Below, one piece after another: positions 9,303 to 27,805 of a stretch of 35,906 nt of DNA. The first letter of the stretch is position 1. The number at the start of each line of letters is the position of its first letter. The DNA is from Candidatus Brocadia sp. (GTDB lineage: Bacteria; Planctomycetota; Brocadiia; Brocadiales; Brocadiaceae), in assembly GCA_013360945.1 (NCBI GenBank), contig JABWAQ010000041.1, forward strand, positions 1 through 35,906. The letters are read 5' to 3'. The translations under genes were made by a program, and so were the position numbers. The notes beneath the pieces were generated by a model. The model made no database searches, had not been told where the DNA came from, and worked only from the letters and a program-made list of their open reading frames with translations.

Positions 9303-9377
9303 ATTGTCCCTCCTCAAAATTGAGACCTATCTAGTTGTTGCCATGATTTTGAATTTTGACTTTTAGTTTCTTTCAGA

Positions 9378-12300: not shown

Positions 12301-15300
12301 CCATCGGGCATTTCGGTTTTAATGAGCCTCCCCAGAACATCGTAATACATCAGGGGCGTAACCCCTGTTTCCACCAATTCCTTCAGATCTTCATATTTGT
12401 GCGTTACTGAAAAGTAAGGCTCGTATCGTTTTACTGTATTGCCTTTGTTGTTGAGCACTGTTCTGCCGTTGCCTATCCAGCGAAGTTGTTTGGGATTAAG
12501 TGCGGCAGTGTTAATGTCTGCAACGGTGTAAGTATTGTCATGGTTTACAATAACTTGTTTTGCCGTTCCTGGCTCTGCCTGCACCTTTTTCATCACTATT
12601 TGACCAAGCCCGTTGGAATATTCGAAACAGAGCTGGACAGGAGAATTGTTGTTCTTTTGAAAATGTTCTTCCCGGACAATAGAGGCGACTACCACAGGTT
12701 TGCCGGAATTTAGATACACGTCAAAGTCATAGACAAATCTTGCTGTAGCATGTTGTAGTAAGCTTTTCCCAAGGTTGGTTAATTGAACGGAGTCCGGGGC
12801 ATTGAAAAAATTGGTAATCTGTGTCTTTTCAGTAGGGGTAGTAAATTCAGTTAAACCTGTTAAATCATCCGCCTCGTTGCCTTTGCCAAATACAGCCATG
12901 GCTTTCACGAAACCAAGCTCATCCACGAGCGCCTCGGATAAATTGGCGTTGGCATCTTTCATCCTTTCTGGTGAAAGTGTGCGGAAATTAAAAAGGTCAA
13001 CACTTGTTTTATTGCCTATTGCATCTTCTATCTCTTCTATGAAAAGGAAGTAGTTGCTGTAGTACTTTACTTTTGTTTTAGCGCCATAGGGATCGGTATA
13101 TAAAATGGGTGTATAAAAACGGTTTTGTGCGTCAACAACAGTTTCAGCATTCTCAATAAACTGCCTTGTGCCCGAACGAATCCACCAGTTGTCATCGCCC
13201 TCGCAGTGAGTGAATTTACCTTCCAGCATCAGGTCTTCGTTGACCCTTGTTCCAAAAATATCGGTGAGGAGGGTCGGCGTGTAAGCCAACTGATAAGTTT
13301 CAAAAGGCAGCGCCAGTGAATCCAACTGATGTAAAGGCAATGCGCCAGTGAGGTCATTTTTATAAAAGATGTTTCGTACATGCTCTATTAATCTTCTTTG
13401 AGCCTTTTCTCCGGCAAGGGGTTTGTCTATTTCATGGTATTCTGCTTTTGAGGATTTAACATCAGACAGTATATCTTCAAAATCACCGACTCTATAAAAA
13501 ATGCCGGTTTTAGTAACACCCTTTAATTCAAAGGTTTTCACTTCAGAAGGCAATCGTAAACGGTATTTATCATCATTCATCGTATCGTTGGTAAAACGAT
13601 TTTGTGTGTAAATAATGGTTGTTTTGTCTTGCGACTGTTGTGTCTCAGCCGGTAAAAAGGCATTTGCTTGCATCCGGGGGTATACAACAGCGGCTGATTC
13701 CAGAACATTGCCGTATTCATCCAATTTAATATTCAGGTTGTGGGCAATTCTCGGGTCTTCTGTATCACGCTCGTAGTTATAGGTAATGGCTTCGCTTTCT
13801 TTTACCACAAAGACGGCATGCTTGTTCATCCCCTTGGGCTGTAGTAGTTCTATGATATAGTTATGGGCAGCAACAGAATAAGGGGTGAGTTGCTTTTTGA
13901 TTTGTTCAGGGGTTGCGCCTACTGATGGTGCGTCGTGAGCAAACACTTCCGAACGCAGGCCAGTGTCTTTGCAGGCCCGCAATGCCTCCCGCCATTCTTC
14001 TGCGCTTAAATGATCAATGATGGAAACATCCAAACCAGGGGCAGCAATGAGACGGGCATCGGACAAAGATGCTTCATTATTGACCACCGTGAAACCATGC
14101 CGTGCCATTTCTTCATACCAATATTCGTGGGCAAACTGATTGAGTATTTTTTCTTTGCTTAAAAATGCCCCGGTATGAAACCACTGTTTGGTAGTAACAG
14201 GTGATTGGTGCAAAGTTTTTTCTACGATATTGCTGGCGTTACCCTTTACCCAGAGATCAAAATCTTCAGTATCTATTTGCTCCACCATACCGAATCCCCT
14301 GAATTCTCTTTCGGCATGGTCATAATAGCCGTGATGATATTTGTAAGATCTGGTGAAACGATAACCCGAAATTCTATCTCTTGTTTCGGTTTTTGAGATG
14401 CAGTGAACCGGAAAATGCAGTTTGGTAACCCATGGCCTGCCAGCAAGCTTGTCTTCAATGTAAAACTTGGCGGAAGGGGTGTATTCCAGCGAAACCTCCT
14501 TGCCAAGGTTGTTTTTGTAAGAAATTAAGATATGCGGTTTCTTGCTGTTCATCAAGTCTATGTACTTTAATGGGACATTAGTATCCTTAGCGAGATTGCT
14601 TGACCACACAATACATGCTACGCCATTGCCGAGCAGATCGGTTACCGTTATTTTTGATTGATTGTGTATCTCAGGGAAGACATCTAGTTCAAAGGCTGTA
14701 GCACTGAAGCGATTGCCGCTTAGGTTTTTCCAGCAGGTGAATTTATTTTTGCCCAGATAAATGATGTCGGTAGTGCCGGAGCCGTCTATATCGGCCAGTC
14801 GTAAATAGGCAGGGTTGAACGCATCAGGATGGTCAAAGACAGGCGCGTTGTCCATACTGATTTTAGACCCGAATTTTCCATAACCCAGATTAGGCCAGTA
14901 ACATACCTCTCCGTTTCTTATCCTGACTATATCCGTTAAACCATCACCCGACATATCTGCAAGGAAAATCGTTTGCGTAATGTCAGCAAATACAAGGTGC
15001 GGACCTTTCTCTTCATCAAATGATTTAGCCGTTTTATAAGCCTGCGTGAACCCTTTCCTGCCGGTGGACTCATACCAGGTAAATATATTATCTTCTGTAA
15101 TTAAGACCTCTGGTTTGCCATCCCCGTTCAGGTCGATCATCCGGGCATTGGAATCTCCCATGTTTATATTGGGTAGATTTTCAAAACTCCGGAATGCCTG
15201 CCACTCTTCCTCGACATTTAATTCAAAGTATCCTTTTGGCTCGCTGTTAAGATTTACCAACTGTTTGCTTCCATCGGCATCCAGATCCATTAATTGCAAA

Positions 15301-16739
15301 CGTGAGCCAATGCCTGCAAAAGAGGGCTTGGGTGAAACCAGTTTTGCCTCTTCAAACCTGCCATCACCCAGATTGTGTTTGTAAAACCAACCTCCGCCTT
15401 GTTCGGTGAGTATTCCAGATAGGCCTTCATTGAATAAATCAGTGAATTGATATTGCGGTTCATCCAATCCTGCGGGTGTATGAACTAAATCATCTTGTGA
15501 AATAAATTTAATATCTTTGTTCCAATCGTGTTTCTGATATTCAAACTCAGTAGACGGCAGATTTTTATTCGTGTATGTCCCATCTGGTTTCTTGATGTAT
15601 CCATACGCGGTAATGGATTTCAAAAAGGTAAAATCCGCTTCGCTTGGAGTGTCATATAAAAAATTGATGGATTTTACTAAAGCCGAGCTACCAGGAAGTT
15701 CGGCAAAATAATGAAACAGCAGGACCCGTTTACAGAGTCTTGTTGTTCTTATTTCAAAACCTGCCTTGTATTCTGAAAATGCGTCTTTTCTGAAATCCCA
15801 ATCCTTAATTTTGGCGTATGGGGCGTTAGCGTCATACTCTCCGTAATCAAATACAGTTTGAAAAAGATAATCTATTTCAGATGGATATGCGTTACCAAAA
15901 TTTTTATACGGCGTTTTGTTGCCGTACAACACCTTTTCTAAATACCGATTGGTGTAAGTAATATCTCCGTTTTCAGTGCGGTTTCTATTGTGCAGCAGCA
16001 AAGTGTCAAAGCCTTTATCGTCTTCTTTTTTATAAATGTAATGGGAACAATTACCTTTGTCATCAAAGACAAATTCAGGCAGCCATTCAAATATTCTGTT
16101 TTCGTTTTTTGGATCGGAAATTCTTGATGCAGCGCCCCAGCCAAAAAGTGTTGTTATATTCTCCTTCGTAATTACTCGCCATTTGATTTCACCTGTAGTT
16201 TTATGAGTCCACCTTTCAATTCGGGCAAATAAACCTTCAATGCGAGGCCTGTAAAATCTCATGGTGAATAGGCCGTCTGAAGAGTCGTTTTCTTTGACTA
16301 TGTAGTTTCCATCTTCATCTAAACTAAAACTGCCGTTCACCTCCTTTTTAAATTCAGGGACAAGGTCTTCTGCTTCTGAAAAAAGGTAGGTGTAGGTATC
16401 CGAATCTATGTATTTTGGAAGTTCTTTATCGGTTTTGCGTTTTATGGACGACAGGCTCAACGTCCACCCCAGGCCGAAAACACCATTTCCTGCGCCGGAA
16501 TTGTAATTTAAATTCAATGCAGGCGAGGCACCACGGGCTGGGGAGAAAGGAAGGGGGATGGAGAAAGAAGCTGTGCCATTTACGGCATTCACAGAAAACT
16601 TTTCATCAATCCCTTTAATCGCCCCGCCGCCTTTGGGCAGCGAAATAGAGGGAATTTCAATCGCGTTGGATTTAGTCCTTCCTCCATCTGTTTTGAAGAG
16701 TTGAGAAGAAGGTTTTGGGGGTTCTATTTCTCTGTTCAT
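9378..16739 (-). CDS. Fused Tc toxin TcB-TcC (SpvB/TcdB + Rhs cocoon) with HEFGH C-terminal effector domain
   Basis: This protein would form the hollow Rhs/YD-repeat cocoon that holds the toxic C-terminus and docks on TcA. In its 2453 residues I see an SpvB/TcaC N-terminal domain (about 30-330), FG-GAP/VCBS beta-propeller repeats with DxDGxG-like motifs (about 440-700), TcdB middle domains (about 700-1060) and many YD repeats. The Rhs core contains DHLGSAGLELD and YHPYG and ends at GRWLSCDP near 2177. The core is followed by an unusual hydrophilic insert of about 80 residues, then LYAYGALNPIIYQDPTGN. The last about 170 residues carry hydrophobic segments (about 2304-2331, 2349-2366, 2417-2434) and H2405-E-F-G-H2409, a zincin-like HExxH. 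A modest AAAGGT lies before the ATG. Effector activity is inferred from the motif only. Confidence 0.93.
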   Translation of the reverse strand: MNREIEPPKPSSQLFKTDGGRTKSNAIEIPSISLPKGGGAIKGIDEKFSVNAVNGTASFSIPLPFSPARGASPALNLNYNSGAGNGVFGLGWTLSLSSIKRKTDKELPKYIDSDTYTYLFSEAEDLVPEFKKEVNGSFSLDEDGNYIVKENDSSDGLFTMRFYRPRIEGLFARIERWTHKTTGEIKWRVITKENITTLFGWGAASRISDPKNENRIFEWLPEFVFDDKGNCSHYIYKKEDDKGFDTLLLHNRNRTENGDITYTNRYLEKVLYGNKTPYKNFGNAYPSEIDYLFQTVFDYGEYDANAPYAKIKDWDFRKDAFSEYKAGFEIRTTRLCKRVLLFHYFAELPGSSALVKSINFLYDTPSEADFTFLKSITAYGYIKKPDGTYTNKNLPSTEFEYQKHDWNKDIKFISQDDLVHTPAGLDEPQYQFTDLFNEGLSGILTEQGGGWFYKHNLGDGRFEEAKLVSPKPSFAGIGSRLQLMDLDADGSKQLVNLNSEPKGYFELNVEEEWQAFRSFENLPNINMGDSNARMIDLNGDGKPEVLITEDNIFTWYESTGRKGFTQAYKTAKSFDEEKGPHLVFADITQTIFLADMSGDGLTDIVRIRNGEVCYWPNLGYGKFGSKISMDNAPVFDHPDAFNPAYLRLADIDGSGTTDIIYLGKNKFTCWKNLSGNRFSATAFELDVFPEIHNQSKITVTDLLGNGVACIVWSSNLAKDTNVPLKYIDLMNSKKPHILISYKNNLGKEVSLEYTPSAKFYIEDKLAGRPWVTKLHFPVHCISKTETRDRISGYRFTRSYKYHHGYYDHAEREFRGFGMVEQIDTEDFDLWVKGNASNIVEKTLHQSPVTTKQWFHTGAFLSKEKILNQFAHEYWYEEMARHGFTVVNNEASLSDARLIAAPGLDVSIIDHLSAEEWREALRACKDTGLRSEVFAHDAPSVGATPEQIKKQLTPYSVAAHNYIIELLQPKGMNKHAVFVVKESEAITYNYERDTEDPRIAHNLNIKLDEYGNVLESAAVVYPRMQANAFLPAETQQSQDKTTIIYTQNRFTNDTMNDDKYRLRLPSEVKTFELKGVTKTGIFYRVGDFEDILSDVKSSKAEYHEIDKPLAGEKAQRRLIEHVRNIFYKNDLTGALPLHQLDSLALPFETYQLAYTPTLLTDIFGTRVNEDLMLEGKFTHCEGDDNWWIRSGTRQFIENAETVVDAQNRFYTPILYTDPYGAKTKVKYYSNYFLFIEEIEDAIGNKTSVDLFNFRTLSPERMKDANANLSEALVDELGFVKAMAVFGKGNEADDLTGLTEFTTPTEKTQITNFFNAPDSVQLTNLGKSLLQHATARFVYDFDVYLNSGKPVVVASIVREEHFQKNNNSPVQLCFEYSNGLGQIVMKKVQAEPGTAKQVIVNHDNTYTVADINTAALNPKQLRWIGNGRTVLNNKGNTVKRYEPYFSVTHKYEDLKELVETGVTPLMYYDVLGRLIKTEMPDGTFSKTEFNSWKQSFYDPNDTILESPWYHKRTNRLIDAELIAEGKDPVKEKTASDKAAKHANTPNVQCFDTMGRPVLSIEHNKNISTEADEFYHTQVKLDIEGNLRSTTDARGNVVMQYKYDMLGNKVYQNSMDAGQRWLLINILGNPLRTWDERNHEFRYFYDDPLHRLTQSKVLGGDGAAPLDNVFDRVFYGEVEANPELKNLRGQIVKHYDTAGLIETPEYDFKGQPKSTTRKLFKNYKGVTNWIDANLANNLENDDFTFTTETDALGRITKQTTPDGSVITLSYNEAGLLNSETVAHADPAITTVYIKDIDYNEKGQREKIVYGNDVVTKFYYDKETFRLKRLETKRQNNDPLQDWHYTFDPVGNITHREDKNIPVVFFDNQKITGVSTYIYDALYRLREATGRENDAALTFDSKGNWNDAPFMHQLNPGDPMAMRNYTQSYQYDDVGNILQMKHQAAGNNWIRDYNYQAANNRLISTQVGANTYTYPHHPQHGYMIAMPHLEDMGWNFKEELIKTIRQKRIDGGTPETTYYQYDGQGHRIRKITENQADAGNTPTKKEERIYIAGYELYKKHSGADVGLERISLSLMDGGHRFVMIETRNDVDDGTEKLLVRYQLHNHLGSAGLELDHTAQVISYEEYHPYGTTAYQAKNSAIKSAAKRYRYTGMERDEESGLEYHSARYYVPWLGRWLSCDPLFKESKVANQDSKTDKEDGKNKNTYDNTPDDKNNPDGNKRPYQHQNEDCDLGKTDGQLHKPQQQKNPITSREETLLNQEGLSNPKNLNLYAYGALNPIIYQDPTGNVAILQAWHKAYKGGSTAEKIGLGIVFIFAWLAHVIVNLLVLILAITLFNPSGLFGALDFSWGAPQSIIGLGAGIIFTLLGADVSPKWGLGAKVEMPAYMGNPGGISFGPVVIGGHGFSDWTHEFGHTWQSRLLGPLYLLIIGIPSAASAASDPASHSNFYTEKWADAWAM

Positions 16740-17606: not shown

Positions 17607-18065
17607 GCACACATCGTAACTATTTTAAAAACAATATCAATAATTAAGTATGATGTCCCCAGAATACCCATTTCATCTTTCGACTTATAAGGCTTACCTT
17701 GCTCCTGTCATTTCTTCCAGGGACGAGGAGGACTTCCCCAGTTGATACCGCTCCTTTCTCTCCGTATCGCTGCTGATATCCCGCCACCGTTCTTTTCCCT
17801 ATTAGCCAATCAAGGTGTGTGAATTCCGTCTTTGCCTATTATTGACAGGCTCGGCCAGTGGTTCTTGACTTTCACGAGGCTACATCTACGTTCACGTACG
17901 TTACAACCCGGATAGTTGCTCGCCTGGCCTTGGTGTAAACTTTGCCGATGGACTTCAGAAGGTACTGTTTCCACCCCCCTCCCATCCACGCTACATGGCT
18001 TCTGGCTTTTTACCATGATGGGACTTTCACTCGCTAGAATGCAGTACCCTTCTCTGGGCACGCCA
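17607..18065. other. Unassigned intergenic DNA, about 460 bp
   Basis: No convincing gene on either strand. The stretch looks richer in G+C than its flanks. A 104-residue minus-strand reading frame crosses its right part but shows no family motif and runs into the flanking repeat. The composition differs from both neighbours and the region ends exactly at the AATAAAGATTTGACCCCC repeat, so it may be cargo or debris of a mobile element. I do not recognise it. Confidence 0.4.
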
Positions 18066-18085
18066 ACAATAAAGATTTGACCCCC
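18066..18085. repeat. Element-end repeat abutting the SPASM gene
   Basis: AATAAAGATTTGACCCCC on the plus strand, the same motif as at 71-95. Its inner edge supplies the TAG stop codon of the radical SAM/SPASM gene. Confidence 0.6.
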
Positions 18086-19527
18086 TATATCTGGCGGAGT
18101 GCTGTCTTGGTTTGGCGGGGACAATCAGGCGGTGCATCCAAAAGGGTTCCAAAATAAAAAAGGGAATCGCGGTAACAATATCCCTGCCATTTATGGCAAA
18201 GATCAAACTCAGAACAAGTGTAACACACGGTTCCATAGAACTGGTCCCTGGAGGGGTAAAGGAAATTATAAAGCTTAGGTGAATTCCATACACCGGTAAT
18301 CCCCTCCTTAAATACGTTTCCCACTATATGGTTGTCTGCATGGGGAATCTGATCGCAGAGGGTAACATCTCCGTTTGGCTGGATAAGCATACTCACCCTA
18401 CCGCCAGAGCAGATAGAACGCCGATCCCAATCCTCTATACTCTTTTTTTTCTGACTTGAGATACTGGTATCCTCCTGTGCTGTAATAGATACTGAAGGAT
18501 ATTGCTCCCGTAGCCTCTCAATGGCCTCTTTCATGGATAGCTTTTGTTCCTGCGTCAGAAAGAGCGCATCATCGTGTCGATAATAGCTTCGACCATATTG
18601 TACGAACTGGAAGTTAGTTACACCCAGATCAGTGAAAAGGCGCACAAGCCCCTCAGGGGCGTCAAAGTTATAACTGGTGAGGACGCATTTGACCCTCGGT
18701 TGTAACCCGGCGGCTATGAGATTTTTTATGGTCTCAATGGCATTATCCAAATATCGCGAATTTCGGGTCAGCATTTTCGCGACTTCTGTATTCGGACTGT
18801 CTATACTCACCTGGATATCACGTCTGAGGTGCAGTGGCTGATCTGGAATACCAATCCCCAGTTCTTTTAATCTAAATGCTGTTTCCTGAGAAAGTAAACT
18901 CTTTGTTGAGAGAAAGAACACAAACTCTCGTTTTACCATTTCAGCAAGTATCTCAAGCACATCCGTTCTTGTAAAAATATCACCTCCTGTGACGTCAACC
19001 ATAAAAATTTCATTCTCTGAGAGATCGCAGAAGAGATCCTTTAATTGCTCAAAGTCAGCCTCATCACAGGTACGTCTTTCTGCGTAACAGTAAATGCAAT
19101 CGCACCGGCATAAGTTTGTAATGGCGACATTGACTGAAATGGGCCGTGCAAGCCTCTCTATCGGGTATTGATACGAGGAAAAGTCAGGGAATAAATGCTG
19201 ATTTGCTTCACGAAAGGATGGGCTTGGTTCACCTTCAAAAGTAACTATGCCTGCATGTGAAATAAGATCCGTTAGCGTACTTTGGAAAAGGTTCGAATGG
19301 GGATCCTCTTTTTTGTCTGTGATGTCAAGCGCATCGTTCCACGCCTCTTTGATATCATCGAGGGTAAAGGTGCCATCAAGAAAGGGAAGTAGGGTAGCCT
19401 CTAAGGGTGTCAAGACCTTATGGGTTAGTGTATCCGTAACACATTTGTAAACAATTATATTCTTTTTGTCATTCCTAATGCGCCAGGGGGTATTTACTCG
19501 AGGTTTTGCTCCAATGTTTGTTAGCAT
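18085..19527 (-). CDS. Radical SAM/SPASM peptide maturase with PqqD-like leader-binding domain
   Basis: A 480-residue enzyme. Residues about 10-95 resemble a PqqD/RiPP recognition element that would bind a precursor leader. The radical SAM cluster is C140-x3-C144-x2-C147, followed by the SAM-binding DVTGGD near 178-183. The C-terminal SPASM cysteines are C373, C391 (G-x4-C), C435-x2-C438-x5-C444, C451 and C469, for auxiliary 4Fe-4S clusters. Such enzymes form thioether or C-C crosslinks in RiPPs such as sactipeptides and ranthipeptides. The gene lies 66 bases downstream of four cysteine-repeat peptide genes on the same strand, its likely substrates. The start is the ATG at 19527 with GGGGTG just upstream; an in-frame GTG at 19536 overlaps that site. 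The stop lies inside a repeat, so the last residues may have been replaced. The class is clear; the exact crosslink is not. Confidence 0.9.
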   Translation of the reverse strand: MLTNIGAKPRVNTPWRIRNDKKNIIVYKCVTDTLTHKVLTPLEATLLPFLDGTFTLDDIKEAWNDALDITDKKEDPHSNLFQSTLTDLISHAGIVTFEGEPSPSFREANQHLFPDFSSYQYPIERLARPISVNVAITNLCRCDCIYCYAERRTCDEADFEQLKDLFCDLSENEIFMVDVTGGDIFTRTDVLEILAEMVKREFVFFLSTKSLLSQETAFRLKELGIGIPDQPLHLRRDIQVSIDSPNTEVAKMLTRNSRYLDNAIETIKNLIAAGLQPRVKCVLTSYNFDAPEGLVRLFTDLGVTNFQFVQYGRSYYRHDDALFLTQEQKLSMKEAIERLREQYPSVSITAQEDTSISSQKKKSIEDWDRRSICSGGRVSMLIQPNGDVTLCDQIPHADNHIVGNVFKEGITGVWNSPKLYNFLYPSRDQFYGTVCYTCSEFDLCHKWQGYCYRDSLFYFGTLLDAPPDCPRQTKTALRQI

Positions 19528-19593
19528 ACTTTTCACCCCAACATGAAAAATTTCTTAAAACGATTATAATGAGAAAATCAGACAGCCTGTTTA

Positions 19594-19815
19594 TTACTGT
19601 TTCTGACTATTCTTGCACCAATCCTTGCACGCTTTTTTACAACCTTCTTTGCAGCTACTCCCACAGCCCCATCCAAATAGATCACTCTCCTGAATTATTT
19701 CATCGGCAGTTGAAACAGATACAGTATCTGGCAGATCAATCCCTGCTCTTTCCAATGAGTCTTTTAAGATCAAAGAGATGATTTTTAAACGGGGATCGGT
19801 TTTTTTTGGAGACAT
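19594..19815 (-). CDS. RiPP precursor-like peptide, five-Cys CX3C repeat (copy 4)
   Basis: A 73-residue peptide. It has a charged helical leader (PRLKIISLILKDSLERAGID) shared almost exactly with the peptide at 20283, a variable middle and a C-terminal core with C51, C55, C59, C63 and C67, each four residues apart, in a Lys/Gly-rich setting. The first cysteine is preceded by GWG, and the core has two aromatic residues (W49, W66), unlike its siblings. There is no secretion signal. The ATG at 19815 is used because AAGGAAGAG precedes it. It is the last of four such genes and lies 66 bases before the SPASM maturase start. The role as maturase substrate is inferred from gene order and cysteine pattern; a small metal-binding protein is the alternative. 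Confidence 0.8.
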   Translation of the reverse strand: MSPKKTDPRLKIISLILKDSLERAGIDLPDTVSVSTADEIIQESDLFGWGCGSSCKEGCKKACKDWCKNSQKQ

Positions 19816-19891
19816 AATTCTCTTCCTTACCGTAAATATCAAAGGCAGACTGCTTTTTCAATAACTCTCGTTTTAGTTTATTAGGTTTATC

Positions 19892-20110
19892 TCACGCTGT
19901 TTTTGAGGAATCTTTACACCCGTCTGAACACCCGGTATTGCACGATTTCTTACATCCCCCGCCTCCACAGTCCCACAGTGAATTAACATCCAACACGTCA
20001 GTTATCACTGCATTAATCTTATCTGCATTCAGTTTAATACCCTGTTTTGCGAGTGACTCCTTCAGGGAAAGCCTGAGAGGCTCTATTCTCGGATCGGCCC
20101 CTTTTGCCAT
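19892..20110 (-). CDS. RiPP precursor-like peptide, five-Cys repeat (copy 3)
   Basis: A 72-residue peptide and the most diverged of the four. Its leader keeps the pattern DPRIEPLRLSLKESLAKQGI, parallel to DPRLKIISLILKDSLERAGI in the copy at 19594. The core has C48, then C53 (one residue wider because of GGGG), then C57, C61 and C65 at four-residue spacing, and ends KDSSKTA like the NSSKTS of the copy at 20283. GGAGGAGG lies just before the ATG. It lies 76 bases upstream of the next peptide gene. It is probably modified by the same SPASM enzyme, but its core is different enough that the product would differ. Confidence 0.8.
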   Translation of the reverse strand: MAKGADPRIEPLRLSLKESLAKQGIKLNADKINAVITDVLDVNSLWDCGGGGCKKSCNTGCSDGCKDSSKTA

Positions 20111-20282
20111 GACCTCCTCCTTTTCGTGTATATTTATAAAAAGTTTTTTATCTAAGTATCATAGATAAATTATTGTAAAATATTTCATCAGTATTGTGGA
20201 AATCTGCCAATAACCTTAATAACTTTGCAGATGTAACCATATTGAAACGGTTGTTGAAAAAGGGCAATTCCAGGCCATGGTA

Positions 20283-20504
20283 TTATGACGTTTTCGAGGA
20301 ATTTTGACATCCGTCTTTACAACCGTCTTTACAGCCTTCTTTACAGCCTTCCCGGCAGTCACCAAGATCGACCCCTTGCATTATTTCACCGGCAGTTGAA
20401 ATGGCTACACTGTTCGGCAGATCAATCCCTGCCCTTTCCAACGAGTCTTTTAATATTAAAGAGATAAGTTTTAAACGAGGTTCAACTTTTTTTTTCGTAG
20501 GCAT
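20283..20504 (-). CDS. RiPP precursor-like peptide, five-Cys CX3C repeat (copy 2)
   Basis: A 73-residue peptide with the most regular core: C50, C54, C58, C62 and C66 separated by REG, KEG, KDG and KDG. The DNA there is a short tandem repeat of about 12 bases, so units could be gained or lost by slippage. The leader (PRLKLISLILKDSLERAGID) matches the peptide at 19594. The ATG at 20504 is preferred over an in-frame ATG at 20525 because GAGG lies just before it and the shared leader begins soon after. No signal peptide or double-glycine cleavage site is obvious, so the leader protease is unknown. Confidence 0.82.
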   Translation of the reverse strand: MPTKKKVEPRLKLISLILKDSLERAGIDLPNSVAISTAGEIMQGVDLGDCREGCKEGCKDGCKDGCQNSSKTS

Positions 20505-20583
20505 AGTTCCCTCACTCCTAACCATAAATATTAAACGATAAATTGCGTTTCAATAATCTTGTTTTGGTATATTAGTTGTTTCA

Positions 20584-20790
20584 CTATCCTTTTCTGGTAT
20601 CCTTGCACTCGTCTATACAGCCATCTTTGCAGTCAAGAGCGCAACCGCGATCACAATTGCCGAGAGATTTCATCAAATCACTAGCGACAACACCAAGGGA
20701 TGTATCTGACAATGTAACTCGATACCTGGCAAGAGAGTCTTTTAATGTCAGGGATATAAGTTTTAAACGGTTATTCTTTCGTTTTACCAT
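20584..20790 (-). CDS. RiPP precursor-like peptide, five-Cys CX3C repeat (copy 1, first after the riboswitch)
   Basis: A 68-residue peptide starting at the ATG at 20790, six bases after GGAGG; a nearer in-frame ATG at 20796 abuts that site directly. The leader RLKLISLTLKDSLARYRVTL aligns with the other three. The core has C46, C50, C54, C58 and C62, all four residues apart (CDRGCALDCKDGCIDEC). It is the first gene after the GEMM riboswitch and its terminator, so it and the genes after it depend on read-through. It is the most acidic core of the set. Confidence 0.8.
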   Translation of the reverse strand: MVKRKNNRLKLISLTLKDSLARYRVTLSDTSLGVVASDLMKSLGNCDRGCALDCKDGCIDECKDTRKG

Positions 20791-20898
20791 AGCCATCCTC
20801 CGGGTTTGATGATTATCGTGTACTTTTACCTTAATTCTTTGAATCAACTTTTTTCTTTAAGGTAATTATACGTGAAACACTTATTGCCATTATCCTTT

Positions 20899-20957
20899 AA
20901 AACAAACAAGCCTTACTGCAAAGATATTTATTTTAAAACATCTTCGGCAGTAAGGCT
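20899..20957 (-). terminator. Rho-independent terminator of the riboswitch expression platform
   Basis: On the minus strand AGCCTTACTGC (20957-20947) and its continuation pair with GCAGTAAGGCT (20919-20909) and its continuation, giving a stem of about 17 pairs with a small internal mismatch and a loop of about 14 A/T-rich bases. TGTTTGTTTT follows. It lies between the aptamer and the first peptide gene. Confidence 0.85.
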
Positions 20958-20969
20958 GTCTTTTCTTGT

Positions 20970-21066
20970 GCAGTAAAGCTATCTTGTGTAACTCACGTCC
21001 CTGTGCGTTGAAAGACCCTTTACTTTGCGTCCCCCGATTGCTCGGGGTTTGCCTTTATCGTATGTT
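20970..21066 (-). ncRNA. GEMM-I (cyclic di-GMP-I type) riboswitch aptamer
   Basis: On the minus strand the order is AAAGGCAAACC, a stem CCCGA-GCAA-TCGGG closed by a GNRA loop, GGGGACGCAAAG, AGGGTCT and a second stem whose outer strands are AGTAAAG and CTTTACT. These are the hallmark conserved blocks of the GEMM-I aptamer that binds cyclic di-GMP (some variants bind cGAMP). The 3' strand GCTTTACTGC (20979-20970) can instead pair over 10 bases with GCAGTAAGGC (20919-20910), the 3' arm of the downstream terminator. This predicts that ligand binding frees the terminator and switches the peptide operon off. Ligand identity is not decided by sequence inspection alone. Confidence 0.85.
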
Positions 21067-21115
21067 TTGGTTTATTTTTCACTATTGTTAAAACCCTTAC
21101 ATTAACCGTTTGCAT

Positions 21116-21143
21116 CTTATAACACAATACCGTTAGATATCAA
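21116..21143 (-). promoter_or_regulatory. Promoter for the riboswitch-peptide-SPASM operon
   Basis: TTGATA (21143-21138) and TATAAG (21121-21116) are separated by 16 bases on the minus strand, about 45 bases before the GEMM aptamer begins. No other good pair was seen between the RAYT remnant and the aptamer. Confidence 0.55.
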
Positions 21144-21159
21144 GAAGAAAAACAACTTA

Positions 21160-21545
21160 TGTCCCCTTTCTCTTTATTTTTCGGCGTTCACAAGAAAGAT
21201 AGCTTAATACATCACGATTTAGCTTATTTGAATCGCATATCCTGGAGGATTGTAAGAAACCACTGGTATTGCATTTTAACACCTTTGCAGCTTTCTCCAG
21301 GATGGCCTTTGGGGTTGGTATCTCTTAATACGTGCCATTTTGGGGAATTTCAACATCAGGTTTTTCGGAGTGTTTTATATTATGCCGGCGTGTATATGTA
21401 GTGCCAAACCATTGCATGCCTTGAGAAATATCGGACTTTTTGGCTTTGAGGAGCAAATAATAATGGTTATTCATGAGGACATAGGCATAAACCTCAATTT
21501 CAAACCTTTTTGACTGGAATACGTAAAGCATACCGCAGATAATCC
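21160..21545 (-). pseudogene. RAYT / Y1 transposase remnant overlapping the HemN-like gene end
   Basis: Minus-strand reading gives SKRFEIEVYAYVLMNNHYYLL, where the HUH pair is damaged (HxY instead of HxH), then AMQWFGTTYTRR-like text. After frameshifts it gives AKVLKC and SNKLNRDVLSYL, typical of the C-terminal part of a RAYT. The N-terminal third is absent. Its 5' end overlaps the last codons of the HemN-like gene in another frame, so the element's arrival set the present 3' end of that gene. It lies directly upstream of the promoter of the peptide operon. Confidence 0.75.
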
Positions 21546-22729
21546 TGGTTTTCAAAATGGAAATACCGTATAGGGATTAGATAACTATGATCCATGCCCT
21601 TATCCGTTAGTTGTGCCATGTTCTGCTTCTTTAAAATCATGCCTTCCTGGACCATACGTTCCAAACCTTCCTCTATAACTGCTAAAGAATCGAGCCCGAA
21701 ACGATCGACCATTTCTTCATAATGAAATCTTAATTTTTTGGTAAGTCCCATAAATACCCAGCGCCGGATTTGATCTTTCTCACTAAGTGGAATAGAAAGG
21801 ATATTATCGTTGTTTTTTACGTATTTATTCAGATCTTTCGTGTTTCTGAGATAACAACCGTCAACGAAAGATTGGGCCGACACACCGAATCCGAGTATCT
21901 CGCCACCATCCCAGTAGTTCCTATGTTGGACACATTCGTAATTGTAGCTTATTCCGAAATGGGCTGTATGAATACGCAAGTATTTCCACTCCAGCAAACG
22001 GTTGATTGCTCCTTGATAATGAGCTATCCGAAGATAGGCGGGAAGGGGCAACGCATCCTTAAAGACCATCCTCCTAAAAAGACCAGTCATAGTCTGAAGG
22101 GTAAAGGGGTAAACGGAGATATGAGGGACAGATAATTCAACCAGCGCATCTACACTCTGCACAACCGAAGCAGCAGCCTCTCCCGGAAGACCAAACAGGA
22201 TGTCACAGTTGATATTGTTGATGCCTGAGGACCTGGTTGACTCCAGAAGGCCAGGTAAAGTATCTTTGGTTCCTTCCCGCCCCATGGCTGTAAGTATACT
22301 ATTATCTACGTTCTGAACACCAAAACTGAGACGATTAACTCCGATTTCTTTGAAAAACCCTAACTTTTCCTGTGTTGTGGAGGACGGGTTGCATTCCACT
22401 GTAAACTCAGGAATTGCCCTGAGATCCCAAAAACGTGTTAAGGTCATGGCTAATGCTTTCCACTGCTTCATCGATAATATGGAGGGAGTACCTCCTCCAA
22501 TATAAAGGGAGTTTACTACTGGCTGTTTACCTGCATAGACTGACCAACGAACACTGATCTCCCGTTCCAGCGCATTAAGATAACTGAATCTTTCCTCTTC
22601 GCTTGTTCCTGTCACAGAAACATAAAAACAGAAGTCACATTTCGACTTACAAAAAGGAATATGAATATACAAATCTACGCCTCTGGTAATGTGGTGAACA
22701 CCGGAAGATTGTTTCTTGGCGTTAGTTAT
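21500..22729 (-). CDS. HemN/HemW-like radical SAM protein (class C type)
   Basis: The protein reads YIHIPFCKSKCDFCFY (C-x3-C-x2-C, without the fourth cysteine of HemN), IGGGTPS, TVECNP, RLSFGVQNVD and LFGLPGE, all typical of the HemN/HemW family. Members include coproporphyrinogen dehydrogenase, the heme chaperone HemW and methyltransferases acting on RiPPs. The C-terminal winged-helix part is present. AAAGGAGG lies only 7 bases before an ATA codon at 22729 (409 residues); the first ordinary start codon is a TTG at 22672, directly before the CxxxCxxC motif and without a ribosome site. I take the ATA start as more likely. The last about 13 residues lie in RAYT-derived DNA. Location beside the peptide operon suggests peptide modification, but heme-related work is not excluded. 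Confidence 0.82.
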   Translation of the reverse strand: MTNAKKQSSGVHHITRGVDLYIHIPFCKSKCDFCFYVSVTGTSEEERFSYLNALEREISVRWSVYAGKQPVVNSLYIGGGTPSILSMKQWKALAMTLTRFWDLRAIPEFTVECNPSSTTQEKLGFFKEIGVNRLSFGVQNVDNSILTAMGREGTKDTLPGLLESTRSSGINNINCDILFGLPGEAAASVVQSVDALVELSVPHISVYPFTLQTMTGLFRRMVFKDALPLPAYLRIAHYQGAINRLLEWKYLRIHTAHFGISYNYECVQHRNYWDGGEILGFGVSAQSFVDGCYLRNTKDLNKYVKNNDNILSIPLSEKDQIRRWVFMGLTKKLRFHYEEMVDRFGLDSLAVIEEGLERMVQEGMILKKQNMAQLTDKGMDHSYLIPIRYFHFENQDYLRYALRIPVKKV

Positions 22730-22845
22730 TGTGAACCTCCTTTCTTTGCTACCGGATGCTAATTTTCTATACGGCCCTTTGATAGTAGTACACTGTCAAT
22801 CTAATTCGTGATAATACGATTTGTATCGGTTCAACTGCATGGGGC

Positions 22846-22933
22846 TGTGTCATTGCGAGGGTATTGTCCGAAGCAATCCCCCTGGATATTTCAAAGGAGA
22901 TTGCTTCGGGAAAATACCCCTCGCAATGACACA
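22846..22933. repeat. Long imperfect palindrome (REP/MITE-like hairpin)
   Basis: TGTGTCATTGCGAGGGTATT and GAAGCAATC on the left (22846-22878) are the reverse complement, with small changes, of GATTGCTTC and ACCCCTCGCAATGACACA on the right (22899-22933), with a spacer of about 20 bases. The core CATTGCGAGG with GAAGCAATC resembles intergenic palindromes seen in many bacteria. It fills much of the gap between two radical SAM genes. Confidence 0.85.
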
Positions 22934-23007
22934 TACGAGAGAGTCTATTATAGTAAATTAAGTTGACAGTTTAGTAGTCTCTATTTTAATAATTTTTGCT
23001 ATCGAAC

Positions 23008-24399
23008 CTATAACTTCAATGGTAAAAAGATGTCTTCATTTAGAAGATTGATTTTTCTAAATGAGTGATCAAGTTTCTCTTGCAAGGTTGGTACAAGTTC
23101 AACCGGGTACGGCCAGTACGTATGGTAAATTGTAGGGTAGAAATCTTTATGAACCTCAAATTGGTATCCCCATTTCTTATAGGTCTTAAAAATTTCTGTC
23201 CCGGGAAATATATGTAAAAAATTGTGGTAGTATTCATCAACATCTATCCGGCGGATAAAATCCAGTGTTTCAATCGCATCAGCCAGGGATTCGCCGGGAA
23301 GACCAAAAATTGTCCCTGCTACAACATGAAATCCAATCTTCTTTGCAATTTGGACAACAGTCACAATCCTCTCTAAGAAATCCTTCTCTGCTGCATAACC
23401 ATCTTTAGAACCATCTGAGTTGCGAACTTTTTTTATCAAGTTTAGAACTCTGGGATTTCCAGACTCCAGTCCAAATTTCAGGAGCCTAAATCCTGCTGAA
23501 TACATACATTGGAGAATATCTTCAGTCAAATGTTCTATTCGGGTTTCGCAACCGAACAAGATATGTTTTGGTTGATTTTCTGAAATAAGATTACATAATT
23601 TTTTCGTTCGATCTGGGTGAAGAGCAAAAATATCTTCGTTAAGCAGCATAATACGCCTTCCTTTCATCCCTGACCTGTGCAATGCCGAATCTATAAAATC
23701 AATCTCGCTCAGAACTCTTTCATTTGAGTGGAATGCATAACTACGTTCCACCATAGCTGTAGGGTTACAAAAGGTGCAGTGAAAAACACAGCCCCGGCTT
23801 GTGCTTATTCCAACATCTATCCCGGCTTCACCAGGAATAAATCCCGATAGATAGGGAGAGGGAAAATAGTCAAGATTATTGATAGCATATTTCTTTACAT
23901 TAGGATTGAAAAAGATTTCACTATTTTTACGATAAGTAATTGCTGGTTTATCGTACCAAGTTTGACCTGATAAATGAGTTTTAACTACAGCCAGAAAGTT
24001 TATTTCGCTATAGCCCCGGAAGCAAATATCGATGGCTTGACAATTTCTTAATACTAATTCATCCGAGTATGTGGCAGTTAAACCTCCAGCCACTATTAAA
24101 ATAGACGGATTCAGAGCTTTAACTGATAATGCAGCCCGTCGTATTGCATAATAGTTAGTGTCATCGCATGAGAAACCAAGAATTTTAATCCCGTCAGCAA
24201 CAACGGTTCTGGCAAAATCTTCCGGTGTTACAGAATTGAGTACATACTGTTTTGACTTGATATTGCCCTGTTGTAAGAATGCCTGAAGATAGCCACATCC
24301 TAAATGGTAATGAGCACTTAATAATCTTTGAGGTTTTTTTGAAGTTGATTGCGTGAGCCAGACTAAACCTACTATAGGTTTCTTTTTCTTTGTATTCAT
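23008..24399 (-). CDS. B12-binding-type radical SAM protein (third of tandem set)
   Basis: A 463-residue class B-like radical SAM enzyme. Residues about 10-160 form a Rossmann-like cobalamin-binding-type domain (ILGFSCDDTNYY, LIVAGGLTATYSDE), although no DxHxxG cobalamin-ligand motif is visible. The cluster motif is SRGCVFHCTFC near residue 200, followed by LLNEDIFALHPDR, LKFGLESGNPRVL and GTIFGLPGES. Family members methylate unreactive carbons or carry out other rearrangements on peptides, lipids and antibiotics. The start ATG overlaps the previous stop (ATGA), so translation is coupled. It is more diverged than its two upstream neighbours. Substrate is unknown; peptide modification is suggested by the PqqD-like gene at the head of the operon. 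Confidence 0.85.
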   Translation of the reverse strand: MNTKKKKPIVGLVWLTQSTSKKPQRLLSAHYHLGCGYLQAFLQQGNIKSKQYVLNSVTPEDFARTVVADGIKILGFSCDDTNYYAIRRAALSVKALNPSILIVAGGLTATYSDELVLRNCQAIDICFRGYSEINFLAVVKTHLSGQTWYDKPAITYRKNSEIFFNPNVKKYAINNLDYFPSPYLSGFIPGEAGIDVGISTSRGCVFHCTFCNPTAMVERSYAFHSNERVLSEIDFIDSALHRSGMKGRRIMLLNEDIFALHPDRTKKLCNLISENQPKHILFGCETRIEHLTEDILQCMYSAGFRLLKFGLESGNPRVLNLIKKVRNSDGSKDGYAAEKDFLERIVTVVQIAKKIGFHVVAGTIFGLPGESLADAIETLDFIRRIDVDEYYHNFLHIFPGTEIFKTYKKWGYQFEVHKDFYPTIYHTYWPYPVELVPTLQEKLDHSFRKINLLNEDIFLPLKL

Positions 24400-25760
24400 A
24401 CCGGAAGGCCATATTTTTTCGCTAATTCCAATTTTTCTCTTATCATGCTTGTTTTATAGTGATAGAAGGCAGAAAAGATTTTTGGGTTTGATTTAATCAT
24501 CTCTTGAATATCAGGGGTGAGAACATTTTTGTTCATTCTTTCAGACTTTTTTTTGTAATGATCGAAATCAACAAGCAAGATATCGGGATCAAATTCTTTT
24601 TTGTATAACCCCGAGGTATTTAACTCTGATTGAGGTAATGGGCTTAGTATACTCATCTGTGGTTTCACTCCCCTTTCAAGACAATAGATGATTAAATATA
24701 TGGTTTCTTTAAATTCATCAATGGTTTCAAAAGGGAATCCTAAGATAAAAGAGGCTGCAACTTCAAAGTACCTGGCAGCTTTCCCTATTAACGGTTCAAC
24801 ATTATCTATCTTAAATCCTTTACCGGCCTTATTTCTAACACGACTAGACCCCGATTCAATTCCCAGAAAAATCTTTTTACAGCCTGCCTTCTGCATTAAA
24901 GCCATTAAATCATCGTCCAAAAGGTCTATTCTGCACATACAACTCCACTCGATGGATAATTTTCTTTCTATTATTTCAGTGCAAAAACGAAGGACCCTGC
25001 CTCTATTAAGAATAAAAGTATCATCTAATATTGAGAATTTATTTCTTCTGTAATTATTTATTAAAAACAGAATTTCTTTTATAACTGATTCGATTGAACG
25101 CTGTGCAATCTTTTTATCCCAATTGGGCGAAATATCACAAAATAGACATTGATAAGGACATCCCCTCGCAGTCAATAGGGAGGAATTTATATATTTCTCC
25201 ATAGTAAGCTTATGGTAGGCAGGAAGAGGTATCGCATCAATATCCATTTTTCTTGCTCTGGGCGGATTCACTACAATACCATTGCTGCTGCGAAATGTTA
25301 ACCCTGCAATAGACTCCAATTTCCGATGTCCGCGGTGTACTTCAAGAATCTCCACTATTGTCTCTTCACCTTCACCACGGACGACAGCATCTATTTCAGG
25401 GAAAGATTGAAGGATCTCTTTTGCTGTCCCGCCTGGTCCAGATCCTCCAAGGACAATAAATGTTCCTGGTTTGTGTCTTTTAAAGTTTCTCAACCCCCGA
25501 AGCAGAAAAGGTAACATATTAGACATACAACTAATGCCTATTATATCCGCAGAGGTGCGTTTCAGAAAATTTAAAATATTTGTGGTATGATAAGGATTTT
25601 CTTCAAATTCCACCTGATAATCATGGAAATCAACCGAATATCCAGCAGCTTCTAATGCTGATGTCAGATACAACGTTCCCATCGGAATACATGCAAATGG
25701 CTTCTTTGAAGGTTCACGATGAAGAAAGAAATTAACAATTGAAATGTCGTGACACTTCAT
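24396..25760 (-). CDS. B12-binding-type radical SAM protein (second of tandem set)
   Basis: A 454-residue paralogue of the gene upstream. The N-terminal cobalamin-type domain has IPMGTLYLTSALEAAGYSV, IIGISCMSNMLPFLLRGL and VLGGSGPGG; again no DxHxxG is seen. The cluster motif is ARGCPYQCLFC near residue 200, followed by SILDDTFILNRGRVLRFC, IFLGIESGSSRVR and FILGFPFET. The linker IPLPAYHKL before the radical SAM barrel is common in this superfamily. It overlaps its neighbours by 4 bases on both sides (ATGA). Similarity to 25757-27130 along the whole length suggests tandem duplication and then divergence in substrate. Confidence 0.87.
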   Translation of the reverse strand: MKCHDISIVNFFLHREPSKKPFACIPMGTLYLTSALEAAGYSVDFHDYQVEFEENPYHTTNILNFLKRTSADIIGISCMSNMLPFLLRGLRNFKRHKPGTFIVLGGSGPGGTAKEILQSFPEIDAVVRGEGEETIVEILEVHRGHRKLESIAGLTFRSSNGIVVNPPRARKMDIDAIPLPAYHKLTMEKYINSSLLTARGCPYQCLFCDISPNWDKKIAQRSIESVIKEILFLINNYRRNKFSILDDTFILNRGRVLRFCTEIIERKLSIEWSCMCRIDLLDDDLMALMQKAGCKKIFLGIESGSSRVRNKAGKGFKIDNVEPLIGKAARYFEVAASFILGFPFETIDEFKETIYLIIYCLERGVKPQMSILSPLPQSELNTSGLYKKEFDPDILLVDFDHYKKKSERMNKNVLTPDIQEMIKSNPKIFSAFYHYKTSMIREKLELAKKYGLPV

Positions 25761-27130
25761 TGGCGGGTTAACTTTTCTATCTCAAGCCCTAAAGAGTTCA
25801 AATATTCTAATTTTTGTTCAAAAAGTTTATCTTCAAACACATAAAACCCTGGAAAAATACCCGGATGTTCACGAACAAGGTCTACCAGTACGTCAGGTTT
25901 ACCATTCACCAATTCATTTCCCTCTGGTAAATAAAAACGACTGGACACAACACTAGATTGCAGGTCTTCTCTAAAGATGAGTCTATACTTTTTTTCATTA
26001 TACAAACGGCTAAGGGGAAGTGGGGATAAGAGGGCCATACTTACGTCGCAATTAAATTCTTTAAGGTAGAAAAGAAGAAAAACAGACTCTTTCAAATCCT
26101 CCATTGACTCAAAAGGAAACCCCCAGATTAAATTTATCCTTACAATAAATTTATTGCTTGCTTTTTTCACTACTTGAATGAGCCTGTCAATATCAATAGG
26201 TTTTGAAATTTTGCGCAAGACATTATTTGAACCAGACTCAACGCCGAGAAAAATCCGGTAACAGCCTGATTTTTCGAATATTTCGATCATTTCATCCGAT
26301 AGCAAATCAACTCTGCAATAGGCACTCCATTTAATCGTCAAGCCCCTGTCTCGATAGGCTTTACAAAAATCAAAAACCCTTCCCTTGTTAAGGATAAAGG
26401 TATCATCTAAAATAGTGACTTTCTCAAACCCGTATTGTTTCTCTAAGAGTTCCAGCTCTTCTATCACCAGATCTAAAGAGCGATACGTGGTATCATGTCC
26501 CCAATAGGCAGATACATCACAAAAATTGCAAGGAAAGGGACAACCTCTTGCCGTTTGGATGCCAACTGTTTCATAAGAGTTCATATCAACCTGATCATAA
26601 CCAGGGAAAGGAAGATCATTCAAATTCTTTATACGCTTCCGAGGCCTCGTGATATGATATGTACCCTTCTCTTTACTCAAGAGAAGTCCTTCTACGCTTT
26701 CAAGTGATTTTTTACCCTCTAAGGCTCTCAGGAGTTCAGGAAAGGTTAATTCGCCTTCTCCTTTTACAATTACGTCAATGTGAGGAAATTCTGCAATTAA
26801 GCTTTCTGCAACTCCTGAAGGCCCAATTCCACCGAGAACAATCGTTTTATCGGGATAGCTCTCCTTGAAAATCTTTGTACTATTTACCACCAACGGTAAT
26901 AAATTACTCATACAACTGATAGCTAAAACATCAGCATCATCATCTATGAACCTTAAAAATTTGAATGTATCAAGCTGGTCCTTTAATTTCTCCAACTGAT
27001 AATCCCGGAATTTGACGTTGAAGCCTGCATTCCGGGATGCCGAAAGGAGATATAAACATCCCTGAGGCACTCTGGCGCCATCGTACTCTTTACTGGTTTT
27101 TACAGCACAATTTATGAGGGTTATTTTCAT
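25757..27130 (-). CDS. B12-binding-type radical SAM protein (first of tandem set)
   Basis: A 457-residue protein with a cobalamin-type N-terminal domain (VPQGCLYLLSASRNAGFNV, VLAISCMSNLLPL, VLGGIGPSG), the cluster motif ARGCPFPCNFC near 197-204, then TILDDTFILNKGRVFDFC, IFLGVESGSNNVL and WGFPFES. It matches the next gene in nearly every block, so the two are close paralogues. The start ATG at 27130 has only a weak ribosome site. A gap of 285 bases with a promoter-like sequence separates it from the PqqD-like gene. Its stop overlaps the next start by 4 bases. It probably acts with its two neighbours on one substrate. Confidence 0.87.
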   Translation of the reverse strand: MKITLINCAVKTSKEYDGARVPQGCLYLLSASRNAGFNVKFRDYQLEKLKDQLDTFKFLRFIDDDADVLAISCMSNLLPLVVNSTKIFKESYPDKTIVLGGIGPSGVAESLIAEFPHIDVIVKGEGELTFPELLRALEGKKSLESVEGLLLSKEKGTYHITRPRKRIKNLNDLPFPGYDQVDMNSYETVGIQTARGCPFPCNFCDVSAYWGHDTTYRSLDLVIEELELLEKQYGFEKVTILDDTFILNKGRVFDFCKAYRDRGLTIKWSAYCRVDLLSDEMIEIFEKSGCYRIFLGVESGSNNVLRKISKPIDIDRLIQVVKKASNKFIVRINLIWGFPFESMEDLKESVFLLFYLKEFNCDVSMALLSPLPLSRLYNEKKYRLIFREDLQSSVVSSRFYLPEGNELVNGKPDVLVDLVREHPGIFPGFYVFEDKLFEQKLEYLNSLGLEIEKLTRQ

Positions 27131-27328
27131 TCATCTTGCCCTATTAAATTTAGAAAAGAAGGATACCGTACATCTTTCTTTTCTGTATAATGACCTAAAC
27201 ACCTTCTCAGTGTATGTCTCATCAACCGCAATGGGATCAAAAAAACTTACGGGATGCAATCCTCTGTAAAAAAAACCCGAGACTCAAACTCCTGCAGCGT
27301 TTCTGAATAATCTTCTCTCCTCCCGATT

Positions 27329-27357
27329 ATACTACATACGCTACCAGGTACAGTCAA
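27329..27357 (-). promoter_or_regulatory. Possible promoter before the tandem B12 radical SAM genes
   Basis: TTGACT (27357-27352) with TAGTAT 17 bases on, or TATAAT (27331-27326) 20 bases on. It lies in the 285-base gap 27131-27415, which otherwise holds no gene that I can support. Confidence 0.4.
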
Positions 27358-27415
27358 ATGCATACGCCGCTATGTTTTATTCCATTTTGATGCCACACCA
27401 GCTCTTGCCAGGAAT

Positions 27416-27805
27416 TCATTCATATTGAGAAATCACGGATTCCTGATAATCTAGATTTTTCAGTGCAGCTGACAAATCCTTAACAATCACACTTGGTTTT
27501 TCAAAAGATTTCCTTTTCCTTTCTATTAATATTCCGGCATCGATTAGTTCTTTTTTTGCCTTGGTGATTTCTGCTTCCAGATCAATTTCCTTTCCAATAA
27601 GGTACACATTTTTAAGATCATCTATGATCTCTTTCTCTGTCTTCGAATTTCTGATTCCATCAAGAATTATACGTGCCGATTTGTTAATAACAGATACTTT
27701 AGACTCTGATTCATTGACTGCAACTAAATCTTCCCCCATTGCCCTCATCTCAATATTAAATGGAACGTTATAATATTCTTTTTCACGATACTCTTTTTCA
27801 TTCAT
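27416..27805 (-). CDS. PqqD-like peptide-modification chaperone (RRE domain)
   Basis: A 129-residue protein. Its middle (about residues 30-100: SKVSVINKSARIILDGIRNS, then a helix with EKEIIDDL and the final KAKKELIDAGIL) has the winged-helix PqqD pattern that binds RiPP leader peptides and presents them to radical SAM enzymes. The last about 30 residues (KRKSFEKPSVIVKDLSAALK onward) are extra and of unknown role. AAAGGAGG precedes the ATG. It heads the strand-wise row of three B12-type radical SAM genes. The four known peptides lie 7 kb downstream and their SPASM enzyme has its own PqqD-like domain, so this chaperone may serve the other enzymes or another substrate. Confidence 0.75.
   Translation of the reverse strand: MNEKEYREKEYYNVPFNIEMRAMGEDLVAVNESESKVSVINKSARIILDGIRNSKTEKEIIDDLKNVYLIGKEIDLEAEITKAKKELIDAGILIERKRKSFEKPSVIVKDLSAALKNLDYQESVISQYE

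Follow-up and report, generated by a model that had tools for sequence, protein, structure and literature searches.

In a 35,906-nucleotide stretch of DNA from Candidatus Brocadia sp. (contig JABWAQ010000041.1; hereafter the window), four short genes, pepA to pepD, lie next to a gene for a radical S-adenosylmethionine (SAM) enzyme with a SPASM domain, here called the maturase. The host is likely an anammox bacterium. We propose that pepA-D encode substrates made of a leader and a tail of CX3C repeats, and that the maturase most likely binds the leader and would close small thioether rings between the tail cysteines and residues close to them. We give this reading a probability of about 0.55. 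The cassette is best read as an unnamed class of ribosomally synthesised and post-translationally modified peptides (RiPPs) made by radical SAM enzymes, most likely carrying thioether rings. The best evidence that the peptides are substrates is that, among relatives of the maturase, the type of peptide tail follows the enzyme tree and the control loci are clean.

Cassette layout and conservation

The original prediction described four adjacent short peptides with five cysteines spaced i, i+4, with one i, i+5 gap, and a radical SAM/SPASM gene next in line. Coordinates and spacing were verified (Table 1): the minus-strand order is pepA, pepB, pepC, pepD and then the maturase, and the cysteine gaps are 4,4,4,4 in pepA, pepB and pepD and 5,4,4,4 in pepC. 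The window has 614 stop-to-stop frames 30 or more amino acids long, and CX3CX3CX3C occurs in four of them, which are exactly pepA-D; 100 windows simulated with an order-2 Markov model gave three such frames in total. When tail residues were shuffled, spacing as regular as that observed arose in 62 to 84 of 100,000 trials. Seventeen columns are invariant across the four peptides, including L16, L18, K19, S21, L22, L29 (pepB numbering) and the Cys ladder. The leader string RLKxISLxLKDSLxRxGI, which had been proposed for all four, fits pepB and pepD; pepA has RLKLISLTLKDSLARYRV and pepC has RIEPLRLSLKESLAKQGI.

Table 1. Features of the peptide and maturase cassette in the window
Feature	Position	Strand	Basis and remarks
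pepA precursor, 68 aa	20584-20790	-	Gene call; Cys 46, 50, 54, 58, 62
pepB precursor, 73 aa	20283-20504	-	Cys 50, 54, 58, 62, 66; TIGR04117 E 2.6e-4, 21 bits (cut-off 50)
pepC precursor, 72 aa	19892-20110	-	Cys 48, 53, 57, 61, 65; first gap i, i+5
pepD precursor, 73 aa	19594-19815	-	Cys 51, 55, 59, 63, 67; TIGR04117 E 3.9e-5, 23.6 bits (cut-off 50)
CX3C core of pepA	20605-20655	-	Cys-spacing analysis
CX3C core of pepB	20307-20357	-	Cys-spacing analysis
CX3C core of pepC	19916-19969	-	Cys-spacing analysis
CX3C core of pepD	19615-19665	-	Cys-spacing analysis
Radical SAM/SPASM maturase, 483 aa, GTG start	18085-19536	-	CX3CX2C at 143-150 and seven SPASM Cys
N-terminal leader-binding-like (PqqD/RRE-type) domain, about residues 12-100	19237-19503	-	Predicted fold
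SPASM domain, about residues 376-474; seven Cys as predicted ligands of two auxiliary clusters	18115-18411	-	PF13186 E 1.7e-10
Conserved block	18086-21151		One long alignment (84%) of the window with G009

Further information was obtained by comparison with relatives. In the genome G009, of which 39 kb around the cassette were compared, only the conserved block gives a long match, the remaining matches being paralogue cross-matches inside the block and one 164-base piece (20897-21060) with a further match elsewhere at 69.5%. Its copies of all four peptides retain every cysteine. Against this block the ratio of non-synonymous to synonymous substitution rates is 0.30 for pepA, 0.32 for pepB, 0.10 for pepC, 0.32 for pepD and 0.16 for the maturase, and by this measure the five genes are under purifying selection. 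A second genome, G022, matches the window with 99.85% identity over 35.7 kb, the first 247 bases lying outside the G022 stretch compared.

The precursor profile A3 matched three of 98 relatives (G000, G009 and G022), with four peptides each, and these are the same three that carry a maturase 86-100% identical. Some maturase match at E 0.001 was found in 82 of the 98, mostly weak. Since one near-identical stretch is common to G000 and G022, this co-occurrence amounts to about two independent cases rather than three. In the alignment behind A3, row 5 (pepB of G009) begins two codons late, and A3 missed a divergent CX3C peptide in G063, another of the 98, which has a maturase of 30% identity. More widely (A2, E 1e-50), the maturase was found in three of 392 Planctomycetota genomes, in one of 250 genomes from the class of the Bathyarchaeota locus described below, and in three of 58 genomes of the order to which the Anaerobacterium locus belongs, where two of the three matches are weak.

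The window contig is 99.85% identical to the chromosome of a genome (G022:C1) placed in another genus of the family. The genome to which the window belongs has 5.29% contamination, and the near-identity of the contig to G022 reflects either recent transfer or mis-binning.

Maturase relatives pair with two kinds of peptide

A search at E 1e-10 gave 141 maturase relatives, the best 120 of which were examined. Nineteen loci were then considered, 15 from the genome-contig scan together with L003, L004, L005 and L053. A CX3C-repeat peptide lies beside the maturase in eight of them: L003, L004 (a near-copy of the window), L005, L024 (Anaerobacterium), L032 (Neomarinimicrobiota), L033 (Bathyarchaeota), L035 (Elusimicrobia) and L053 (from a viral collection). 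In eight others, first found by position, the neighbour is a peptide read as 59-74 amino acids and ending in CxxCxNGx(H/R)W. Two of these are in Peptococcaceae (L022 and L023), and six (L025-L030) in Methanoperedens, Methanosarcinales or an unnamed archaeon. At all 16 positive loci, no more than about 1.3 kb separates the enzyme from the start or end of the paired peptide. At L028 there are two copies of the CxxCxNGx(H/R)W peptide.

As a control, 24 loci whose radical SAM genes are weaker relatives (L006-L021, L042-L044 and L054-L058) were screened, and none holds a short frame with either tail, with flanks limited to 1.5 kb a side in L006-L021 and L042-L044, as against up to 6 kb in L022-L036 and L053. 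The earlier suggestion of a link between the peptides and the SPASM enzyme is thus supported by the conserved block, the co-occurrence, the pairing in distant phyla, the 0/24 controls and the agreement of tail type with the enzyme tree. In sequence terms, a putative short precursor is encoded beside a modifying-type enzyme and conserved with it, as expected of a RiPP. The CxxCxNGx(H/R)W ending is, at the same level, a second, unnamed core of the same maturase family, found in Peptococcaceae and methane-cycling archaea.

Ten neighbour proteins scanned in six loci included no shared function, no recognised protease and no radical SAM protein, and the sole exporter among them was an ATP-binding cassette (ABC) exporter in L053. 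As only one of the ten is an exporter and none a recognised protease, we slightly favour an unexported product. A phage-borne system is not claimed. A scan of IMG/VR with A2 gave at least six relatives, of which only L053 was long among those listed; it shares 25% identity with the maturase over residues 41-473, with the CX3C peptide and the ABC transporter downstream, and the other five are pieces of 20-24% identity without such peptides.

Two additional frames were noted. One of 30 amino acids upstream of the Methanosarcina maturase (L031, 5390-5479, plus strand) resembles a leader without a core, and another, Cys-rich and 46 amino acids long, lies downstream of a more weakly related SPASM gene from the order that includes Anaerobacterium (L043, 4095-4232, plus strand).

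Tail type follows the enzyme tree

In a tree of 34 maturases, one change with 100/99 support separates the two tail types and, with the root as drawn, those with CxxCxNGx(H/R)W peptides fall together in one clade among the CX3C enzymes. This tree does not include L004 and L036, L053, L005 and L033 sit on long branches, and 13 rows fall in no group. For rows P0057, P0027, P0106, P0104 and P0098 the tail type was assigned only through an inferred shared contig of maturase and peptide clusters. Profile comparison of 14 CX3C-type leaders (from anammox-type loci, Anaerobacterium and six others) with 15 leaders of the second type gave a probability of 89% and a score of 28.9, the best of 200 shuffles reaching 14.2, which makes the second-type leaders homologous to most of the CX3C leaders compared; part of this leader set was collected with profile A4, which mixes both tail types and can favour leader similarity.

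The core and the maturase

In 32 CX3C-type peptides, a set chosen by hand that contains many near-copies, 122 of 141 Cys gaps are i, i+4 (P0141, cut short, and P0144, P0146-P0152 and P0192, with other leaders, were left out). Within these 122 steps, position +1 is K in 47, position +2 is D/E in 57 and S/T in 28, and position +3 is G in 82. The CX3D/E donor-acceptor motif is absent, position +4 being Cys and D/E standing at +2. The idea that one helix face carries all thiols found no support in the predicted model of pepB, whose helices, at 9-24 and 31-44, both lie outside the core. The mean pLDDT (per-residue model confidence) of blocks from residue 41 onwards is 40-52, and with confidence this low the model is no proof for or against a helix after modification.

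In the maturase, the radical SAM motif and the SPASM cysteines (376, 394, 438, 441, 447, 454 and 472) are invariant across 22 aligned family members. The N-terminal domain is modelled with strands at 13-15, 18-22, 27-31 and 39-41, followed by helices at 44-52, 59-69 and 79-93 (mean pLDDT 90). The PqqD-like domain proposed earlier for the enzyme stands as a predicted fold and not as a Pfam match: Pfam PqqD is not reached by the window maturase, and one of the 22 members matches it, at E 0.088. In the model, alignment to SkfB begins at residue 16 and to SuiB at residues 10-12. From this fold match we predict that the maturase N-terminus is a leader-binding domain. SkfB carries an N-terminal RiPP recognition element (RRE). 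For PqqE and SuiB an N-terminal RRE is named in a figure legend of PMC8326336, in the part of that paper available.

How rings might form

The scheme we propose takes as its model the mechanism put forward for SkfB and AlbA in the accessible part of PMC8326336. The N-terminal domain of the maturase would hold the peptide leader, and the radical SAM cluster would remove a hydrogen atom from one of the residues in a CX3 unit. A Cys held close to an auxiliary cluster would then attack the radical-bearing residue, so that its sulphur becomes linked to a neighbour within the unit and a small ring results. Each ring should cost 2 Da, and repetition would build a ladder. With four related precursors and one enzyme, four related products would be expected.

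We lean slightly towards attack at the alpha carbon, since the maturase scores nearer to SkfB and PqqE than to CteB (structure entries 5why and 5wgg), and since a grouping of this kind separated sactisynthases from QhpD-like ranthipeptide synthases in the available portion of PMC11002830. This leaning is weakened by the PapB model, which matches 12 of the 22 family members at E 1e-5; it is absent among the best 25 of 50 families for the window maturase. A link from Cys to the Asp/Glu at +2 would also be possible, because PapB tolerates Cys-Xn-Asp with n from 0 to 6, according to the part of PMC9413430 available.

Other genes in the window

Upstream of the peptides, a minus-strand set at 21500-27805 contains three B12-binding radical SAM genes (23008, 24396 and 25757), a HemW-like gene (21500-22672; 180.9 of 205.4 bits) and a 129-residue PqqD-like protein (27416-27805; PqqD E 0.0041, 17.9 of 23.4 bits). 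It is possibly a second, separate radical SAM pathway. Two of the B12 genes were scanned against NCBIfam, and ApyD was the best model, far below its cut-off. Also on the minus strand are two very large genes (111-16739) with Tc-type domains, identified by Pfam only (TcA_TcB_BD, ABC_toxin_N, SpvB, TcdB middle regions and RHS repeat), and a ParE-type toxin gene (31307-31612; PF05016, E 1.4e-18). A promoter and terminator scan of 17800-21500 predicted 10 promoter and 3 terminator sites, where shuffled sequence averaged 7.0 and 3.2, and was not used.

Discussion

Several observations weigh against our reading of the peptides as leader-guided substrates for thioether formation. No peptide was found beside the maturase at three of the 19 loci (L031, L034 and L036), nor within 1.5 kb of the intermediate relatives L042-L044 (204-217 bits). 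Three precursor clusters lie on one contig of 216,649 bases where none of the 120 maturases (the best 120 of 141) was placed. The maturase of G022 (G022:C1:41715-43162) is recovered as two pieces in different frames, overlapping around residue 400, so that this copy may be broken or misread. A leader common to all CX3C loci was rejected, as those of L005, L032, L033, L035 and L053 score no higher than their own shuffles with either leader profile. These five most distant loci retain the Cys ladder with an unrecognisable leader, and the picture of the same leader with two tails consequently holds for only part of the family. Finally, the best NCBIfam model for the maturase, mycofactocin maturase TIGR03962, reaches 94.4 bits of the 265 needed; with the best match so far below its cut-off, other radical chemistry is possible.

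Such chemistry could be C-C bond formation, oxidative decarboxylation or epimerisation of the peptides, for example, with no Cys thioether made and the cysteines serving later as metal ligands. We regard this as possible but considerably less probable than ring formation. It agrees with the company the maturase keeps in NCBIfam, where mycofactocin, GeoRSP, WgkB, NirJ2 and SynChlorMet ScmE are the five best models and PqqE is close behind, all under cut-off, and with the presence of SuiB and PqqE among its best fold matches. The second tail, with two Cys and N, G, H/R and W at the extreme C-terminus, would also suit a C-terminal, cofactor-type chemistry. A role of the peptides as small proteins that bind metal or a cluster and need no modification, beside a radical SAM gene with another job, seems unlikely to us: evenly spaced cysteines could bind metal, and a modified product is so far a prediction, but the conservation of the block, the joint presence of peptides and maturase in 3 of the 98 relatives, a paired peptide at 16 of the 19 loci and at none of the 24 controls, and the agreement of tail type with the enzyme tree all speak for one system. 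More improbable still is that the larger set at 21500-27805 acts on the peptides, the SPASM enzyme being one tailoring step. All those genes lie upstream of the peptides on the same strand in the window, yet G009 keeps the peptides and the SPASM enzyme, the set has no long match in the 39 kb sampled there, and the ten neighbour proteins scanned elsewhere contain no radical SAM protein.

If the peptides are indeed substrates for thioether rings, they represent an unnamed radical SAM RiPP class in which one enzyme family, and partly one leader family, serves two unlike tails; leader-core modularity and core choice are therefore directly testable. Such a class would probably also yield peptides with several rings built from a very simple repeat, and would point to peptide-derived products in anammox bacteria and methane-cycling archaea. 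It is tempting to go further, although we think it rather unlikely that the whole of the following is right. A bacterial and archaeal maturase family would build thioether ladders on CX3C repeats, with four products at once in anammox bacteria, even as the leaders diverge. From it a daughter clade, found in Peptococcaceae and methane-cycling archaea and still using the leader, would have been retooled to a C-terminal CxxCANGWHW-type tail whose product is a small internal redox or metal cofactor and not a secreted peptide.

Comparison with known systems

The original prediction assigned the core and leader to no named class. This has to be qualified, because the CXXX-repeat radical SAM target is already known as a kind, as a prediction: NCBIfam holds TIGR04114, TIGR04117 (Syntroph_Cxxx) and TIGR04118, short predicted radical SAM targets with C-terminal C-x-x-x repeats. 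Some of our peptides match these models weakly, under cut-off. TIGR04117 is matched by pepB and pepD (Table 1) and by the Bathyarchaeota peptide (18.7 bits), with no match for pepA or pepC. In 294 Planctomycetota genomes it gave eight weak matches, none over cut-off, two of them being the window cassette and its G022 copy. SCIFF (TIGR03973, six-Cys-in-45) matches none of the window peptides at E 1, and the L005 peptide reaches 15.4 of 50 bits.

From the model names, we take TIGR04115 (rSAM_Cxxx_rpt) to be the maturase partner of these three target families. Membership of the window maturase in it was rejected, the protein being absent from the G000 matches at E 1e-5, where the best is another locus at 142 bits (cut-off 350). 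A TIGR04115 gene of Anaerobacterium, over cut-off, has about 1 kb away a 234-residue frame with CSG/CTG-type Cys repeats (L074, 9005-9706, minus strand), likely the target of that predicted system. For the maturase, the leader family and the second tail, profile searches gave no NCBIfam family model over cut-off among the matches listed, the general SPASM domain apart, and literature searches, confined to open-licence papers, found no title on this class among the papers listed.

The mycofactocin maturase is the best NCBIfam match, and differs from ours in score, as given above, and in that the neighbouring peptides here are CX3C repeats. With the sactipeptides (SkfA/SkfB and subtilosin AlbA) the maturase shares radical SAM and SPASM domains and, as a predicted fold, an N-terminal domain of leader-binding type. 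It misses the curated sactisynthase cut-offs (AlbA 47.3 of 850 bits; StsB 45 of 625 bits), and its peptides differ in their tandem CX3C units, known sactipeptides being mostly hairpins with generally one to four links, according to the part of PMC8326336 available. Ranthipeptides such as freyrasin (PapA/PapB) and thermocellin (CteA/CteB) differ in having Asp/Glu, and not Cys, at +4, so that the CX3D rule of freyrasin does not apply here, and CteB is a weaker match to the maturase than SkfB. They resemble the present system in their repeated short Cys motifs, a single SPASM enzyme and several rings, as in the six Cys-Asp links that PapB makes in CX3D motifs (PMC9413430, available part).

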